From: an uncultured Chlorobiaceae bacterium
Lineage (GTDB): Bacteria > Bacteroidota > Chlorobiia > Chlorobiales > Chlorobiaceae
Assembly (NCBI GenBank): GCA_903942355.1
Contig: CAJAOR010000114.1
Coordinates: 1 to 35,848 of the forward strand
Direction of reading: 5' to 3'
DNA length: 35,848 nt
Below the pieces are notes generated by a model, which searched no databases, was not told the DNA's origin, and saw nothing but the letters and a program-made list of their open reading frames with translations. Numbering within the stretch: the stretch's first letter is position 1; every line of letters begins with the position of its first letter. Shown piece by piece: positions 24,002-32,534 of the stretch. The translations under genes were made by a program, and so were the position numbers.

Positions 24002-24445
24002 TTATGAATGTATCGGTCTAGCCACGTCCACCTGTTTGGTCATCAACAGAGTGTTTTTGCCGTTACTTCTGGAGTAGGAGACCTTATCCATAAGGTGATT
24101 GATAAGAAACAGTCCGTACCCTCCCTCCGGATAACTGGATATCACAGGGCTGTGTGTTTGAGGGTTGAACTGCGAATTAGAGTCAATCATGGTTGCTGTA
24201 AGCTCTTGCTTATTGGTGGTTAAGGTGATTGTGACCTCTTTTGCCTTATTGGAAGGGTCAGCATATCGTACAGAATTTGTAAAAGATTCGCTGATGGAGA
24301 GTTCGAACGCATGAGCAAATTCGGAAATGTTGCTGGTAGCGCGTGTTTCATGAGCAAAAATTTCAGCGATATTGCGAGCTATAACCGAAACTAACTTGAC
24401 ATAGATTAAATCGCCCTGCAGGGTAAGGGTGAGTATCTTTTTCAT
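24002..24445 (-). CDS. RsbW-like anti-sigma/HATPase_c regulatory protein (copy A)
   Basis: FELSISESFTNSVRYADPSN...MIDSNSQFNP...YPEGGYGLFLINHLMDKVSY; close paralog of 29985-30422. Confidence 0.85.
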   Translation of the reverse strand: MKKILTLTLQGDLIYVKLVSVIARNIAEIFAHETRATSNISEFAHAFELSISESFTNSVRYADPSNKAKEVTITLTTNKQELTATMIDSNSQFNPQTHSPVISSYPEGGYGLFLINHLMDKVSYSRSNGKNTLLMTKQVDVARPIHS

Positions 24446-24471: not shown

Positions 24472-24599
24472 TTACATAGCTGTCGCTGCAACGTCATCAT
24501 ATAAAGCAACTGACTCTCCGGTGACTGCTCGATATGGCTAAGAATGCCTTGCAGTGAGACAATCGGAACGTTATTGCTGTTTTTTTCAATGACAGTCAT
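24472..24599 (-). pseudogene. Remnant STAS anti-sigma-factor-antagonist gene (internal deletion plus frame change)
   Basis: N-terminus MTVIEKNSNNVPIVSLQGILS aligns with STAS MNISEKTINNYIILSIQGILN at 30784; another frame gives ALYDDVAATAM* aligning with DIYDDVSAAAEA*; STAS core with DSSGLG absent; ATGA overlap with upstream stop. Confidence 0.8.
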
Positions 24600-25972
24600 A
24601 CGGTATCTTCTTGATGTATTCTGTTGAAAAGAGCTTTTTGTGTCATTGCTATATCCTTAAAAGGATTGCTGTGAACCGCATAGTAATGATTGACGATATC
24701 TGAATCAATATCATTTTGCGGCCAATCTTCAGCTTCGGCATAACTGAAAACGCCAGGTCTGAGATGCGCTTTGCTCTCCTGAGTCACCTCAACCGGTCGG
24801 CTTCCGATAAGATCAAGATGGCCACTCAGTACCTTAAAAAGCCACATATAGCGATCCAGGGAAAAAAAAGCAGCCAGAGCACTCAGCATGCCCTTTTTTC
24901 TTAGAGTCGTCACTGGCAGAGCCACCTTGCACCGTGGTTTCGCGGAGTGATAGATTGTTGTTTTTGTCGACCAGGAGCCTCGTAACTCAAGTATCGGTCT
25001 TAAAAGAAGATAAGGAAGCAATAGGAGAGTAATGAGCGATATCGCAATACAGCCGTGCACGATCCTTAGGAAGAGAGTTGCTGAACCGCCGGTTTGGCTT
25101 ATGCTACTTAAAAGATGCGGGTCTTCCATTGTTAGCGATTGCCCGCTTTCGGGGTCAATAAGAACATTGCCGGAGGCAATTTTTCTTTCAACTTCAAGCT
25201 GTTCACCAATAAAGGTGTTATCCATAACTATGCTTGATGCAACAGTGCTTTTCCTGTCGACAATCACATTGTTGCCAATGATTGCTGCCGGCCCGATTAC
25301 TGAACCGGCAAGTATCTGGACGTTGTTGCCGATAATGACCGGTTTAACAATTTTCGCGCTTTTTTGAATGACAACATTTCTGCCAATGTAGCATCCCGCC
25401 TCATTGTTATACCCCGGTAGCACGTAGTGTAACAATCTGTTGTGCAGCAGATCTTTGGCGAGTTCATAGTACTGCCCTGCAGAGTCAAGAACAACAGTCG
25501 ATAAGGGAGGAGTCTCGCGGCTGTTTTCTGAAGCGACAGGCGAGCCGGTCAGGCTGAGGGTTTTTTGGTCGAAACCCAAAACATCGCCTGATGGAAGGGA
25601 CGCAAAAAAAGAGCGGTAGTCAGCATTTTTATTGTAATGAAAAAAAAGAATGTTGTTGATAATCATAATCCGTTCATTCGAACAGAATTTGCTGTTTTTT
25701 TCCAGGATTTTATTGAGGCTGTCCGATGGCAGAGAGTTCGCATAACTGATATCAATGCCCCATCTATCGCCTTTTTCGCAAAAGTCTGCAACATCGTTGA
25801 TTGTTTCATCACTTATAATCCTGATAGCGGTGCTGCCAGCCAGGATAGAAAAATCAATGAAAAACTCGATAAACGGCTTGTTGCACAGGGGAACGAGCAG
25901 CGGATGATGGCCGGGCAAGATATCGTGCAACCAGGGATAATCGACCCCTTTTGTGATAATTATTGTTTTCAT
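24596..25972 (-). CDS. Three-domain chimera: nucleotidyltransferase-like + LbH hexapeptide + degenerate polyprenyl-phosphate sugar-transferase-like domain
   Basis: MKTIIITKG...PLLVPLCNKPFIEFFID (NTase-like), YIGRNVVIQKSAKIVKPVIIGNNVQILAGSVIGPAAIIGNNV (LbH), TM helix then FFSLDRYMWLFKVLSGHLDLIGSRPVE...LRPGVFSYAEAED (PGT-like). Confidence 0.8.
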   Translation of the reverse strand: MKTIIITKGVDYPWLHDILPGHHPLLVPLCNKPFIEFFIDFSILAGSTAIRIISDETINDVADFCEKGDRWGIDISYANSLPSDSLNKILEKNSKFCSNERIMIINNILFFHYNKNADYRSFFASLPSGDVLGFDQKTLSLTGSPVASENSRETPPLSTVVLDSAGQYYELAKDLLHNRLLHYVLPGYNNEAGCYIGRNVVIQKSAKIVKPVIIGNNVQILAGSVIGPAAIIGNNVIVDRKSTVASSIVMDNTFIGEQLEVERKIASGNVLIDPESGQSLTMEDPHLLSSISQTGGSATLFLRIVHGCIAISLITLLLLPYLLLRPILELRGSWSTKTTIYHSAKPRCKVALPVTTLRKKGMLSALAAFFSLDRYMWLFKVLSGHLDLIGSRPVEVTQESKAHLRPGVFSYAEAEDWPQNDIDSDIVNHYYAVHSNPFKDIAMTQKALFNRIHQEDTV

Positions 25973-25981
25973 GGTCCCAGC

Positions 25982-26338
25982 TTATTGTCCTGCTGTTGCT
26001 GCATTGAATGAAGCTACAGCGGAGGCGGCGTCGGGGTATATAGAAAAAAGCTGTTTAGCTTTGGTAAGCTCAAAAATTAAAGAGACCTTTGGCCCAAGAG
26101 CAGCAAGCCTGAGATCACCCTTATGCTCAAGCGCCTTGCGCAGACAGGAGACTATAGTACCCAAACCGCTGCTGTCGATAAAGTCCAGAGCGCTGCAGTC
26201 AAAAACAATATTGGCACTTTGCTGTAGCCAGAGTGAAAATGCTTTTTGAAGTTCATTGCAGTTACTGGCATCAATGCGGACCTGCAGTAAAGCAATGCCA
26301 ATTGTTGTATCGGTAGATGTATCGAGTTGAAAGATCAT
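25982..26338 (-). CDS. STAS-domain anti-sigma factor antagonist
   Basis: IVFDCSALDFIDSSGLGTIVSCLRKALEHKGDLRLAALGPKVSLIFELTKAKQLFSIYPD; conserved DSSGLG phosphorylation site. Confidence 0.9.
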   Translation of the reverse strand: MIFQLDTSTDTTIGIALLQVRIDASNCNELQKAFSLWLQQSANIVFDCSALDFIDSSGLGTIVSCLRKALEHKGDLRLAALGPKVSLIFELTKAKQLFSIYPDAASAVASFNAATAGQ

Positions 26339-26352
26339 ATTGTTATCGTGTT

Positions 26353-27072
26353 TTAGTATGCACCTTTGCCTGTCAGCACGGCCGGGATAGTTTTTAGAAG
26401 CAAAAGAAGATCATTGAGAAAACTTGCGCTTTTGATATACTGCATATCAAGCATAACCTGTTCATTAAAGGGGATATCGCTTCTGCCGCTTACCTGCCAA
26501 AGACAGGTAATGCCGGGTATGACGTGCAGTCTTTTACGCTCTTCAAGGGTATATTTTGCCACCTCCGACGGGAGTGGCGGTCTGGGCCCAACAAGACTCA
26601 TGTCGCCAATGAGGACATTGAGAAGTTGCGGCAGTTCATCGATGCTGAGCTTGCGGATTACCCTTCCAACCCTTGTGATTCTGGGATCTTTTTTAATTTT
26701 GAAGATAACACCTGCTGTCGACTCGTTCTTCGCTGCCAGTTCTGCTTTTAAATGGTCGGCATTAAGAATCATCGACCTGAATTTGTAAAACTTGAAATGC
26801 TTGCCATTTCGGCCCACCCTTGTCTGGTAATAGAGGACAGGGCCGGGATTTTCAATCCAGATGCAGAGCGCTGTCAAGAGACAGAGAGGAAGAAAAAATA
26901 ATCCACCAACTATTGCGACTGTTATATCCAACACTCTTTTCAGGAGATAGGAAAACATTACCGTCACCTCCCATGAAGTGACCTTCACGGAGCGTCTGAA
27001 GCGGACCTTTGGATTGATCGACTCGCTGACTTTCTCTATCAGCTCTTTTCGGACTGTTGGATCAAGTTCCAT
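26353..27072 (-). CDS. Undecaprenyl-phosphate sugar phosphotransferase (bacterial sugar transferase)
   Basis: FSYLLKRVLDITVAIVGGLFFLPLCLLTALCIWIENPGPVLYYQTRVGRNGKHFKFYKFRSM...LSIDELPQLLNVLIGDMSLVGPRPPLP...IPGITCLWQVSGRSD. Confidence 0.96.
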   Translation of the reverse strand: MELDPTVRKELIEKVSESINPKVRFRRSVKVTSWEVTVMFSYLLKRVLDITVAIVGGLFFLPLCLLTALCIWIENPGPVLYYQTRVGRNGKHFKFYKFRSMILNADHLKAELAAKNESTAGVIFKIKKDPRITRVGRVIRKLSIDELPQLLNVLIGDMSLVGPRPPLPSEVAKYTLEERKRLHVIPGITCLWQVSGRSDIPFNEQVMLDMQYIKSASFLNDLLLLLKTIPAVLTGKGAY

Positions 27073-27078
27073 ATAAAT

Positions 27079-28305
27079 CTACCGTGTAGAGTGCCGATTA
27101 ATTGCGTTGGTGGATCTTTCCCGAATCCTTGACGAATAAGCGCTAGAGATCGATTTTGAGATCTCTTTCCATGCTAATGGTATAAATTGGCTGTCCCTTA
27201 TCAGATAACGCCTCCACATTCGTGTCGGTTCGCTTGCCAGACGCCAGATCCATTCACAGCCTGATCTCTGTATCCACAGGGGAGCCCGATGAATAACACC
27301 TGCAGCAAAATCAAACGCTGCGCCAACACAGAGTATAGGACCAACCTGTAGTCGATCACTATGTTTTGCGGCCCATTTTTCCTGTTTTGGAGCCCCAACA
27401 CCAATAAAAAGGATGTCGATATTTCGGGTGTTTATATCATTAATAATCCAATCGGTCTCTTTCGGCGTATTCTCAAATCCAAAAGGGGGGCAGTAGATAC
27501 CTGATATTTTCAAGCCAGCAAATTTGCCTTTGAGTTTTGCTGCTGCCTGTTCGGCAATACCAGGATTGCCTCCGAGGAAATAGATATTCAAGTCGGCTTT
27601 TGCAGCTTTTTCACACACGGCTATCAAGAGGTCGGCACCGGTTACCCGCTCCGGAAGACTTCCGTCCTTCACTATTTTGCTCAACCAGACAATAGGCATT
27701 CCATCAGCATATCTAAAGAGCGCATTGTCATAGATTTGCTTCATGTCGCTATCCTCTTGCAGCATAACGACATGGTCTACATTTGGCGTGACAACAAGGC
27801 CCTTTTTCTTTTCCTTGCCCGCGTTAATGATTTGAGTAACCGCTGAGGAGAGTGTTGCCCGTTCAAATGAAATGCCTAAAAGTTCTGTTTGCATTTTTTC
27901 TGGTACCTTTGGCTCATGGTTGATTATTTTTTCGGCAACAACTAAAAAGCTTTGATAGCTTCCGAAAAAAATCAGTCCTAACGATCGAAGCAAACGCTCA
28001 TTCTCTTCATCTTCATTTTTTGAGAGGCAGATGATTTTGCATGGATTGAGATGCTGTTTAATATAGCTGAGCAGTTTTGCATCAGGAGCCTCAGAGAAGC
28101 TGTCAGTCATCACAATTAGCTCAAAGTGGTGCCTTTGCGTGCTTATCAATTCAAGTTCTTCAGTGCTCTCGGCCAGGCTAATATGGTAATTGGTATTTTG
28201 AAGCAAAGAGCAAAGCGAAGGGACCTCTATTTTTTTTCCTAAAATCAGTGCGTTAATCACTCGGGGGATATGTGTCTTTGTTTTTAAAAGCCCTGTGTTA
28301 ATCAT
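27079..28305 (-). CDS. WecG/TagA/CpsF-family glycosyltransferase with N-terminal receiver-like domain
   Basis: C-terminal: VTPNVDHVVMLQEDSDMKQIYDNALFRYADGMPIVWLSK...ERVTGADLL...LGGNPGIAEQAAAKL...IGVGAPKQEKW; about 140 extra N-terminal residues with receiver-like beta/alpha pattern. Confidence 0.9.
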   Translation of the reverse strand: MINTGLLKTKTHIPRVINALILGKKIEVPSLCSLLQNTNYHISLAESTEELELISTQRHHFELIVMTDSFSEAPDAKLLSYIKQHLNPCKIICLSKNEDEENERLLRSLGLIFFGSYQSFLVVAEKIINHEPKVPEKMQTELLGISFERATLSSAVTQIINAGKEKKKGLVVTPNVDHVVMLQEDSDMKQIYDNALFRYADGMPIVWLSKIVKDGSLPERVTGADLLIAVCEKAAKADLNIYFLGGNPGIAEQAAAKLKGKFAGLKISGIYCPPFGFENTPKETDWIINDINTRNIDILFIGVGAPKQEKWAAKHSDRLQVGPILCVGAAFDFAAGVIHRAPLWIQRSGCEWIWRLASEPTRMWRRYLIRDSQFIPLAWKEISKSISSAYSSRIRERSTNAINRHSTR

Positions 28306-28534: not shown

Positions 28535-29872
28535 CTATAAGTTGTAGATTTTCAGGCGGCGGTAGAGTGTTGCTTCGCTGATACCAAGAAGTTTGGCTGC
28601 GGCGCGTCTGTTGCCGGTTGTCTGATTGAGGGCTTTACGGATTGCGTCTTTTTCGTGAGAGGCAATACTTGCTGGTTGTTGGTTGTCAACTCTTTCGTCA
28701 TTTGTTGCCGGATAGGGGTTGAAAGAGAGGCTATCGCGCTCCATAATATCGCCATGGGAGATGGTTATGGCTCCACGGACGACGTTTTCGAGTTCACGGA
28801 TATTGCCTGGCCAGTCAAAAGCCATGAGGGCGTTCATGGCACTTTCGGAAAATTGCTTGGCTGGGTATCCTTCCTTGATGAGCTTGTCAATAAAGTAATT
28901 GCAAAGAAGAGGGATATCAAGCCGTTGCTCACGCAGTGGCGGGGCAAAAATTGTGATAGCATTCAGGCGGTAGTAGAGGTCCTGGCGAAAGGTTCCTTTT
29001 TTGACGGCTTCGGTAAGATTGCAGTTTGTAGCGGCAATGATTCGGATATTAACGGGATAAATTTTTGTTTCTCCAACTGGTTTTACTGCTCGCTCTTGAA
29101 GGGTGCGGAGCAATTTAGCCTGCATCGAGAGAGGCAGTTCAGCTATTTCGTCAAGAAAAAGAGTGCCTTTATCCGCAGAGCGTATCATGCCAAGCGTGTT
29201 TCGGTCGGCACCGGTAAAGGCACCTTTTGAGTGCCCGAAAAGTTCGCTCTCAATAATGCTGTCGTTGATTGCGGCACAATCGACAGGGATAAAGACTTCG
29301 TTGCTTCTTGCGCTTTGAGCGTGTATGGCACGGGCAATAACTTCCTTACCGGTGCCGCTTTCGCCCTGAATGAGAATTGTTGTTCCGGTCGGGGCTATTT
29401 TAAGCAGCAGCTTTTTGAGCTTTTGCATTTCAGGTGACTCACCTATAAGGCCCTTAAAATCAAAGGCACCGGAAGGAGAGTGCAGTGCAACAGAAGTTGT
29501 CTGTTCCGCAAATTTATAGAGGGATCGGTTTGTCCCGACTAACGGGGTATTTGACGCGAGAATGGATAAGAGCAGTTCTGAAGGTAGTTGAGTTAAGGCG
29601 GTTAAGGTGTTGCCTAACTCATCCTGATTGCTGACAAGAATCACTTTTTTTGCCGGGTGCTTTTCGAGATTATGCTGGATAAAACATAGCCCTTCTTGTG
29701 CCTTCTCATGCAGTGCCATAAGGATTATGTCGATATCGTCAGCAAGGATATGATGCTCGGCATCGGTAATGTTGTCACAGTTTATGATCTTTAGATGCGG
29801 ACGTTCCCTGTCTATCAAGCCTTGGTGAGCTCTCTTTTTTTTTTCATTTATTACGAGTATTGTCGAAGACAT
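28535..29872 (-). CDS. Sigma-54-dependent transcriptional activator (AAA+ and Fis-type HTH) with degenerate N-terminal receiver
   Basis: GESGTGKEVIARAIH (Walker A), ESELFGHSKGAFTGADR (GAFTGA), GTLFLDEIAELP, RRAAAKLLGISEATLYRRLKIYNL. Confidence 0.96.
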   Translation of the reverse strand: MSSTILVINEKKKRAHQGLIDRERPHLKIINCDNITDAEHHILADDIDIILMALHEKAQEGLCFIQHNLEKHPAKKVILVSNQDELGNTLTALTQLPSELLLSILASNTPLVGTNRSLYKFAEQTTSVALHSPSGAFDFKGLIGESPEMQKLKKLLLKIAPTGTTILIQGESGTGKEVIARAIHAQSARSNEVFIPVDCAAINDSIIESELFGHSKGAFTGADRNTLGMIRSADKGTLFLDEIAELPLSMQAKLLRTLQERAVKPVGETKIYPVNIRIIAATNCNLTEAVKKGTFRQDLYYRLNAITIFAPPLREQRLDIPLLCNYFIDKLIKEGYPAKQFSESAMNALMAFDWPGNIRELENVVRGAITISHGDIMERDSLSFNPYPATNDERVDNQQPASIASHEKDAIRKALNQTTGNRRAAAKLLGISEATLYRRLKIYNL

Positions 29873-29984: not shown

Positions 29985-30422
29985 CTAATAATATAACGCA
30001 TTATTACATGTTATTTTTGGTTGTTTTGTCATGGTCAGTATGTTTGAGTCATCTTCCCTTGTGTAAGCAACCTTGTCCATTAGCCGGTGGATCAAAAAAA
30101 GTCCATATCCGCCTTCAGGATAACTGTTTATGTCTGGAGCCTCAGTAATCGGGTTGAATTGCGGATTCTTGTCAATGATGTTTACCGTGAGGGTGCCGTT
30201 GTCGGACCAGAAGCATATCTTAACCTGTTTTTCCTTTTGTGAAGGTTCCGCATATCGGACCGAGTTTGTAAATGCTTCACTAACGGAGAGCTCATAGGCA
30301 TGACAGAATTCAGCTACGTTGGCACCATCGGCAAAAATTTCAGCAACATTACCGGCCATAATGGAGACAATCCGGAGATAACGGAGATCAGCCTGCAATG
30401 TTAAGGTGGCTATCGGGTTCAT
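29985..30422 (-). CDS. RsbW-like HATPase_c regulatory protein (copy B)
   Basis: YELSVSEAFTNSVRYAEPSQ...IIDKNPQFNP...YPEGGYGLFLIHRLMDKVAY; start at Met 30422 by alignment with copy A. Confidence 0.85.
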   Translation of the reverse strand: MNPIATLTLQADLRYLRIVSIMAGNVAEIFADGANVAEFCHAYELSVSEAFTNSVRYAEPSQKEKQVKICFWSDNGTLTVNIIDKNPQFNPITEAPDINSYPEGGYGLFLIHRLMDKVAYTREDDSNILTMTKQPKITCNNALYY

Positions 30423-30460
30423 AAGTAAGATGATTTGCCTTTTCTTGTGCATCTTTTTTA

Positions 30461-30784
30461 TTATGCCTCAGCCGCAGCCGACACATCATCATAAATATCA
30501 AACAGCGTATAGGCCTGTGTGATTTCAAATACTTTTTTTACTCGTTCATTCATTCTTGCCAGTTTGACCACGGCATTGCTTGTCTTTTTTTTCCGGGCAA
30601 TCCCTACCAGCACTCCGAGACCGCTACTGTCAAGAAATTCAATATTTTCCAGGTCAACGACAATAGATTGCGTATCCGGCAACCCTGCTACGTAGGATTT
30701 CAGCATTGGAGCAGAGGAGGCATTGAGGATACCCTGAATCGAGAGAATTATATAGTTGTTGATGGTCTTTTCGCTGATGTTCAT
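30461..30784 (-). CDS. STAS-domain anti-sigma factor antagonist
   Basis: IVVDLENIEFLDSSGLGVLVGIARKKKTSNAVVKLARMNERVKKVFEITQAYTLFDIYDDV. Confidence 0.94.
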   Translation of the reverse strand: MNISEKTINNYIILSIQGILNASSAPMLKSYVAGLPDTQSIVVDLENIEFLDSSGLGVLVGIARKKKTSNAVVKLARMNERVKKVFEITQAYTLFDIYDDVSAAAEA

Positions 30785-30848: not shown

Positions 30849-32534
30849 CTACTCTCTCTTCGTTGATTGCTTGTTGCCAGAAAGCTTCATGACGATGTCA
30901 CTCCGGGATCCGATACGGATAACAATGCAGGTGGCATCATCATCAAAGGTACGCCTTCCGGTAGCCTCAAAAAGCTGCGTGCTGATTTTTTCTATCAACG
31001 CATCAGGCTGGAGCCTGTGATGCTCAACAATTAAATTACGCAACCGTTCTGTCCCGAACATGGTATTGTCAGGCAAGAGGCTTTCGGTAATGCCGTCGGA
31101 GTACATGACAAAGATATCGTCCTCTTTGAGCGGGAAGCAAACCATTTTGTATTGCTGTTCTTCAATCATGCCCACAGGAAGGTTTTTTCCCTTGAGCATT
31201 GTGCAGGTTCCATCATCGGCATGAAAATGGATGGTAGGGGTGTGGCCACAGTCAATCATGGAAAACTCCCTTTTTTCCAGATCAAGGCGTATAAATAAAA
31301 GTGTTGCATAAATACCGATATCAAGAAGCTCAAAAATGCATTGTGCATGCAACTGGGTGGCAATATCCTCCAGTTCAGGGAGTTGATGGTTCTGGTGTTT
31401 TTTTTGTGCGACGGTTTTCAGAAAAAGCGACTTTAAACCCGCACCAACCAGAGCCGACAGTATGCCGTGTCCCATGACATCGCCAATGAACATATCAGCA
31501 TGCTTGTTGTCGTAAAGGATAAACTCTGTAAAATCACCGTTCAGATGACCTGAAGAGATGGTAAACTGGCTCATTGAAGTCCCATCAAGGGATTTGGGGA
31601 TCGTACTTTGCAACAGTTTCTGCTCAATTTGTGTCTCAAGTTCCTGCTGCAGGTGTTCATAACGTGCCCGGCTTTTTTCTTCCTCAATCCGCGAAGAGAT
31701 ATTCCTTGCAATGATGACGGTATGGAGAACAGAATCAAGGATGAGGGTTCCTGTCGTGACCTCAAGCGGTATTGAACTGCCATCTTTTTTAATCCCGTCT
31801 ATTCGTCGAACATTCCCTTCTCTGAGCGATGCAAGGTTGTTTGCAGGATCTTGGCAGGCACTATACAGGGCGCACGAATTGTTTAGCGGAATGATAAAGT
31901 CCGTAAAACTTTTCAAGTGGAATTCTTGCTCAGTTAGTCCAAAAATGGTTTCAGCAGCCAGATTATTATAGACAATAAATCCCTGCTCATTGAGCAGAAA
32001 AATGGGGTCAAATGCGGAATCGTTCATTGTCCGGAATTGCGTTTCACTCTGACGTAATTCTGCGGACATGATGTGAAGCGTATTATTGACCTTCAACAAC
32101 TCCTCGTTTTTTGTTTCAAGCTGACTGAACAGCATCTGCCGTTCCTCTTTCAGTTGAAAATAATCAATGGCATCCTTTATGACTTTCTTGAACCCCTCCG
32201 GCTCGATTGGTTTTGGGATAAAGCGGAAGACTTCACCAGTATTGATGGACTCAATAATCTGGTCGATATCATGAATGCCGCTGAGAATAACGCGCACAAT
32301 ATCAGGATGGCTTATTTTTACCCGGTTGATGAGCTCCATGCCCGTCATCTCCGGCATGCGCAGATCGGTTAACAGAATCGTTATATCATGAGTTTCAAGC
32401 AACTCCAAAGCCTCTTTACCGCTTGCTGCAAAGTATTTTATATAAGGTTCCTTGCGTAAAAAACGGTTCAATGAACCAAGTGTATCCTGCTCATCGTCAA
32501 CAAAAAGGATCGCAATTTCAGAGAGGGCTTTCAT
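30849..32534 (-). CDS. RsbU-like response regulator: REC + PAS + SpoIIE/PP2C serine phosphatase
   Basis: REC: ILFVDDEQD...ILLTDLRMPEMTG...FIPKPI; PAS: FRTMNDSAFDPIFLLNEQGFIVYNN; PP2C: MFIGDVMGHGILSALVGAG...VMYSDGITES...DDDATCIVIR. Confidence 0.95.
   Translation of the reverse strand: MKALSEIAILFVDDEQDTLGSLNRFLRKEPYIKYFAASGKEALELLETHDITILLTDLRMPEMTGMELINRVKISHPDIVRVILSGIHDIDQIIESINTGEVFRFIPKPIEPEGFKKVIKDAIDYFQLKEERQMLFSQLETKNEELLKVNNTLHIMSAELRQSETQFRTMNDSAFDPIFLLNEQGFIVYNNLAAETIFGLTEQEFHLKSFTDFIIPLNNSCALYSACQDPANNLASLREGNVRRIDGIKKDGSSIPLEVTTGTLILDSVLHTVIIARNISSRIEEEKSRARYEHLQQELETQIEQKLLQSTIPKSLDGTSMSQFTISSGHLNGDFTEFILYDNKHADMFIGDVMGHGILSALVGAGLKSLFLKTVAQKKHQNHQLPELEDIATQLHAQCIFELLDIGIYATLLFIRLDLEKREFSMIDCGHTPTIHFHADDGTCTMLKGKNLPVGMIEEQQYKMVCFPLKEDDIFVMYSDGITESLLPDNTMFGTERLRNLIVEHHRLQPDALIEKISTQLFEATGRRTFDDDATCIVIRIGSRSDIVMKLSGNKQSTKRE

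Follow-up and report, generated by a model that had tools for sequence, protein, structure and literature searches.

A 458-aa protein encoded on the minus strand of a Chlorobiaceae MAG contig (24596..25972) combines a sugar-nucleotidyltransferase (NT)-like domain, a left-handed beta-helix (LbH), and a domain related to monotopic phosphoglycosyltransferases (PGTs), and both of its active sites are destroyed. The gene was intact and under purifying selection in 34 Chlorobiaceae orthologues and lies in a fixed order among partner-switching genes and beside the gene of an intact PGT. We consider it marginally probable that the protein acts as a membrane-anchored effector of the partner switch, gating the adjacent PGT at the start of EPS synthesis. 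The window, i.e., the whole stretch of DNA analyzed, was 35,848 nucleotides long. The source MAG is 77% complete, and its close relatives are labelled uncultured Chlorobiaceae. The open reading frame picked out in the first-pass annotation is real; it is on the minus strand, as are all window genes described below.

Domain architecture and homology

The protein starts with a degenerate NT-like domain (residues 1–165, 25478..25972), recognized by hhalign comparison with the homologues L155 and L097 and shorter in the alignments than in intact relatives. It is followed by the LbH of hexapeptide repeats (residues 193–275, 25148..25396), a re-entrant-type membrane helix (residues 298–330, 24983..25081), and a pseudo-PGT domain with an invariant VFxY.E.E.W motif (residues 331–458, 24599..24982). 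The central LbH, already recognized in the first-pass annotation, was matched by Pfam Hexapep as tandem repeats with 43.2 bits (cut-off 27).

Both ends of the single sequence were too diverged for a firm call, and comparisons were therefore made at the family level. The N-terminus of the window protein matched TIGR01207 RmlA in NCBIfam (E=6e-5) and RmlA in the PDB (0.0019–0.003), and NTP_transferase was matched by Pfam in two of 17 orthologues. The NT-like character proposed for this end was thus weak from one sequence and became firm through intermediates: the family profile aligned by hhalign with the intact NT-LbH-PGT protein L155 (99.3%, E=1.9e-20, 378 columns) and with L097 (99.7%, E=2.5e-25, 422 columns). 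On these alignments, homology establishes the domain order NT-LbH-PGT. The PGT-like layout suggested for the C-terminus was borne out as well, and the family is homologous overall to the monotopic PGTs: Bac_transf (PF02397) was found with E≤0.01 in 15/17 orthologues (best 1e-7) and in L097 with 49.8 bits, the window protein alone staying below the cut-off (20.3 bits; cut-off 27). Since hhalign gave only a weak match (22%) when the family was compared directly with the adjacent PGT by itself, the PGT assignment was based on L155, L097, and Pfam.

Structure prediction from six sequences was too poor for use, with a mean pLDDT of 37 for the full length and 51.6 for the C-terminal part; the LbH was among the better-scored stretches of the full-length model. 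Foldseek with these low-confidence models gave no significant fold match.

Loss of both active sites under purifying selection

In the NT-like domain, GxGTRLxP...PKP is replaced in the alignments by TKGVDYPWLHDILPGHHPLL (residues 7–26, 25895..25954). The loss of this signature had been claimed in full; the loop and the catalytic Lys are indeed gone, but a downstream KP is retained as CNKP in 34/34 orthologues. The GxGxRxxP nucleotide loop with the catalytic Lys, as defined by PF00483, was found in none of the 34 orthologues and is intact in the homologues L155, L099, and L142. The first metal Asp site (residue 107, GD motif) is occupied by G, N, or K (Asp in 0/34), and the second aligned site holds Asp in only 25/34, so that no orthologue has both metal-binding Asp.

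In the pseudo-PGT domain, SxDE reads SLDR (residues 371–374, 24851..24862), with Arg where the catalytic Glu of the Asp-Glu dyad belongs. The loss of the dyad had been seen earlier, and across the orthologues Asp373 is kept in 33/34 and Glu is replaced by Arg in 33/34. The KFRSM motif is absent as proposed, and it is present in the adjacent PGT (26353..27072) in 30/30 loci. The active-site residues of PglC are K59, R88, D93, E94, and R111 (PMC12802240). By our own alignment, which sets the equivalence of positions, only the D93 equivalent is conserved among the orthologues; for K59, R88, and R111, the KFRSM region is absent and the positions aligned with R88 and R111 (368 and 392) are variable.

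The DX12P motif of the re-entrant helix is incomplete. Pro320, the presumed kink of this helix, is invariant (34/34), with no Asp 13 residues before it and a near-invariant His306 (33/34) 14 residues before it. Because this Asp is lost, the membrane topology is not certain. In PglC, roles have been described for the helix kink Pro and for a C-terminal Asp that stabilizes the re-entrant helix (PMC12802240); Asp440, present in 34/34 orthologues, aligns with the latter.

Median pairwise dN/dS (Nei-Gojobori, 34 orthologues, pairs with dS between 0.05 and 2.5) was 0.22 for the NT part, 0.17 for the LbH, and 0.28 for the membrane and PGT part. The low values, together with the invariant Pro320 and Asp440, argue well for a maintained, fold-keeping pseudoenzyme rather than a pseudogene. 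The pseudogene reading was rejected, as 34 intact frames and low dN/dS were found in all domains. The first-pass annotation had called the protein a pseudoenzyme from one sequence, and destruction of both sites under purifying selection extends this to the 34 Chlorobiaceae orthologues.

Gene neighbourhood and homologues

Upstream of the pseudoenzyme gene are STAS1 (25982..26338, 118 aa, STAS 60.7 bits), which carries the phosphoacceptor motif FIDSSGLG, and a small monotopic PGT (26353..27072, 239 aa, Bac_transf 217.5 bits) with all catalytic motifs intact; KFRSM, S[IV]DELP, GPRP, and VSGR are kept in 30/30 loci. Downstream is a decayed STAS2 remnant with internal deletions (24472..24599), identified by DNA alignment with L027:10404-10724. 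Its start codon overlaps the stop of the pseudoenzyme gene, and its ends align with L027 across the deletions. The next intact gene encodes an RsbW-type HATPase, a candidate STAS kinase (24002..24445, HATPase_c_2 73.9 bits, ExxTN box). The location between two STAS genes, as first described, therefore holds for the upstream side, but in the window the downstream STAS is a remnant only. Two STAS genes immediately flank the pseudoenzyme gene in 29/29 relatives, often with overlapping ends, and the order PGT, STAS1, pseudoenzyme, STAS2, and HATPase was found by tblastn mapping in 29/29.

A second pair in the window consists of an intact STAS2 homologue (30461..30784, 85% identical to L027:4566-4889) and an RsbW-type HATPase (29985..30452). 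It adjoins the gene of a response regulator-PAS-PP2C (SpoIIE) protein, a candidate STAS phosphatase (30849..32534, SpoIIE 136.4 bits), and the STAS2 function of the window genome may for this reason have passed to the pair at 29985-30784. Both STAS-HATPase pairs are carried by L027. In the relatives, the PP2C gene is located upstream; only in two fragments, L026 and L112, was no such gene detected. In a motif scan of the loci, the STAS phosphoserine motif was conserved. By gene content and motifs, the gene set of a partner switch (STAS with phosphoacceptor Ser, RsbW-type HATPase, and PP2C) is thus encoded together.

Of 37 genus genomes, 15 carry a close PGT (at least 71% identity), and it is precisely these 15 that carry the pseudoenzyme gene; because all genes are in one locus, this counts as one observation on the locus and not as phylogenetically independent support for each link. 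Fixed gene order may reflect co-transcription only. Taken together, 34 intact orthologues, fixed gene order, and purifying selection in all three domains are more than chance. The tie to a partner-switching module and a live PGT, as first suggested, is strongly supported by gene order and co-occurrence, and it is extended by intact or half-way homologues beside STAS and PP2C genes in other families.

Further upstream, the window encodes a WecG/TagA glycosyltransferase (27079..28305) and a sigma-54 activator related to the PEP-CTERM response regulators (PrsR) (28535..29872, TIGR02915 352 bits, below the cut-off of 502.6). The WecG/TagA protein has a pseudo-receiver-like N-terminal extension (approximately residues 1–130, Response_reg only 12.7 bits) and lacks a PGT-like domain. 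In relatives, the WecG/TagA beside the PGT has its own N-terminal degenerate PGT domain (L029:7392-8774, L034:5886-7655, L036:6480-8192, L101, L103, and L108), sometimes preceded by a pseudo-receiver-like region; in the L029 fusion, Bac_transf scored 40.9 bits and the dyad was lost.

The in-depth search for homologues covered plasmids and phages as well as genomes of this phylum. The architecture and its association with STAS/HATPase genes, for which a database check had been proposed, were found in the Chlorobiaceae relatives and, outside this family but within the phylum, in homologues of three kinds. The first is a 601-aa NT-LbH-PGT protein with all motifs intact (within L155:5195-10041, genome G398; NTP_transferase 187.6 bits, LbH, Bac_transf 121.6 bits), which has a STAS gene directly upstream and a response regulator-PP2C gene two genes before the STAS. 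The second is a 518-aa NT-LbH-PGT protein with a shortened NT part and intact motifs (within L099:8269-12470, genome G057), located between STAS on one side and PP2C and response regulator-HATPase on the other. The third, from one genus (L097 and L098; genomes G098 and G270), is 563 aa long and has lost the motifs at both ends; PP2C is close by in both, and in L098 a STAS gene was called near the degenerate NT-LbH-PGT gene. A separate PGT (56–58% identity) is encoded nearby in L097 and L098. In the L099 and L155 stretches examined, the fusion was the PGT that was found, and a free PGT accompanies the fusions that are dead.

Likely, the homologues form a series from the intact fusion through a trimmed one with intact motifs to one dead at both sites and accompanied by a separate PGT. 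In our reading, an active STAS-linked fusion enzyme would have become inactive where its task was assumed by a free-standing PGT. Because the linker between the LbH and the membrane helix can be aligned, a single origin of the NT-LbH-PGT fusion is favoured, convergent fusion in L099 being the alternative. The ancestor of the Chlorobiaceae protein was probably a bifunctional NT-LbH-PGT enzyme, in which an NDP-sugar synthase was joined to an initiating sugar-phosphate transferase. Within one regulatory context, the family allows comparison between an enzyme that has every motif and a pseudoenzyme.

Possible role in EPS initiation

The pseudoenzyme has lost the chemistry of both ends and keeps the LbH core (oligomerization) and the re-entrant helix with its stabilizing residues. 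In the mechanism proposed here, it would be placed on the cytoplasmic side of the inner membrane, beside or hetero-oligomerized with the active PGT, whose gene is the second one upstream. The NT-LbH part of the pseudoenzyme, in the cytoplasm, would be the effector bound by the STAS protein or proteins. The HATPase would phosphorylate STAS at the serine of DSSGLG, and the response regulator-PAS-PP2C phosphatase would remove the phosphate. The phosphorylation state would set whether STAS partners with the pseudoenzyme or the HATPase, and this choice would decide whether the PGT is licensed to charge the lipid carrier with the first sugar-phosphate, so that EPS synthesis starts. Binding, membrane placement, the direction of regulation, and PGT activity as the output are all inferred, leaning on the precedents of EpsW-EpsZ, SypA, and the Anabaena STAS-glycosyltransferase fusion. 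Further points against the effector model are that the window genome has lost the downstream STAS2, though another STAS2-HATPase pair is kept, and that the need for two STAS proteins is not accounted for.

In Myxococcus xanthus, the PGT EpsZ is activated when EpsW~P binds to it directly (PMC12802240). As there, a signalling protein would regulate an initiating PGT post-translationally; EpsW, however, consists of a receiver domain and acts on a large PGT without an intermediary, whereas in the chlorobial loci the signal would pass through STAS proteins and a dead relative of the PGTs. STAS/HATPase/PP2C signalling proteins are found inside a polysaccharide locus also in the SypA-SypE system of Vibrio fischeri and the HmpU/V/W system of Nostoc; the present loci differ from these in having a pseudoenzyme gene at a constant place between the STAS genes. 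Unphosphorylated SypA promotes biofilm, and its direct target is not known (PMC8256260; PMC4517449); Anabaena all4160 joins STAS to a glycosyltransferase (PMC8256260). For STAS proteins of polysaccharide loci that, like SypA, are without a known direct target, the pseudoenzyme family offers a candidate whose gene has a constant place, with STAS genes and the gene of an active initiating PGT as neighbours. With the enzyme-like homologues as controls, it is directly testable whether the partner switch acts on EPS initiation itself or on a sigma factor.

In Bi-PGTs, the catalytic domain of a PGT carries fused functional domains at either end (PMC10942596). L155 and L099, with enzyme-like domains fused to the monotopic PGT fold, have such an architecture; unlike in Bi-PGTs, both sites are destroyed in the Chlorobiaceae proteins and L097/L098, whose genes have that of a separate active PGT in their vicinity. 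The NT fold followed by a C-terminal LbH is shared with the RmlA-long, GlmU, GMPPB, and eIF2B-epsilon types, but the Chlorobiaceae protein lacks their nucleotide-binding loop, catalytic Lys, and GD metal Asp, its NT part is shortened, and a PGT-like membrane domain is added. The possible novelty raised in the first-pass annotation holds in that no account of the architecture was found in the open-access literature; a PNAS 2021 survey of PGT fusions, outside this coverage, may already list the intact fusion. More tentatively, the proteins may represent a new effector class, in which a fused dead NT and dead PGT with STAS input, possibly joined by metal or redox input via four Cys, gates a PGT by pseudo-heterodimerization at the membrane and derives from an already STAS-controlled active enzyme.

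The main rival to the effector model is a constitutive scaffold, which we regard as possible but rather unlikely. The dead PGT would then be no more than a membrane anchor or dimerization module gathering EPS-initiation enzymes around the PGT, and STAS, HATPase, and PP2C would regulate another target, i.e., transcription via the PrsR-like sigma-54 activator of the cluster or a distant sigma factor. It gains plausibility because, in many relatives, WecG of the same clusters carries another degenerate PGT domain; apparently, dead PGT domains also serve as anchors where they have neither an NT nor a STAS partner. The close flanking by STAS genes with often overlapping ends in 29/29 relatives speaks against it, as does STAS adjoining the homologues L155, L099, and L098 although their other neighbours differ.

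Conversion of the NT-like domain into a metal or redox sensor, its signal being fed into the PGT and/or the partner switch, is improbable. Cys30, Cys65, Cys97, and Cys194 (codons 25883-25885, 25778-25780, 25682-25684, and 25391-25393) are invariant in 34/34 Chlorobiaceae orthologues and may form a metal or Fe-S site; Cys308 and Cys348, the remaining two of the window protein, are not conserved, and the alignments of L097, L099, and L155 contained no Cys at the four invariant sites. Cys conservation can, however, have other causes. That the protein is still an enzyme is very unlikely. LbH folds are often acyltransferases, His286 and His306 are conserved, and Asp373, at the position of the nucleophile, could leave residual transferase activity, but KFRSM is missing, as are the residues that orient the substrate in PGTs. 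The hexapeptide acyltransferase reading was judged unlikely, as the LbH matches LbH domains of nucleotidyltransferase families (EIF2B, GMPPB, and GlmU-like) as well as generic hexapeptide models. A decaying gene or assembly artefact, for which the neighbouring STAS2 decay and the incomplete MAG might speak, is hardly conceivable given the low dN/dS of every domain and the intact orthologues, which include that of the isolate Chlorobium phaeovibrioides BrKhr17.

In the phage search no homologue was found, and in the plasmid search only the LbH of one Vibrio matched. On a plasmid of Streptomyces sp. NBC_01022, a STAS gene overlaps a large NT-LbH-type nucleotidyltransferase gene (L143:4624-7505); this pairing was absent in SAT1 and Sulfuricurvum and was set aside as incidental. 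No description of a PP2C-STAS-NT-LbH-HATPase cluster of the L142 type was found in the open-access literature. On the Vibrio sp. THAF190c plasmid NZ_CP045339.1 (L142:6461-9632), response regulator-PP2C, STAS, NT-LbH, and HATPase genes are in a row, followed by cellulose-synthase-like glycosyltransferase and DUF3131 genes. The row resembles the chlorobial locus in these signalling genes and the glycosyltransferase gene beside them; unlike the chlorobial protein, its NT-LbH protein has intact motifs, is seemingly active, and has no PGT domain.
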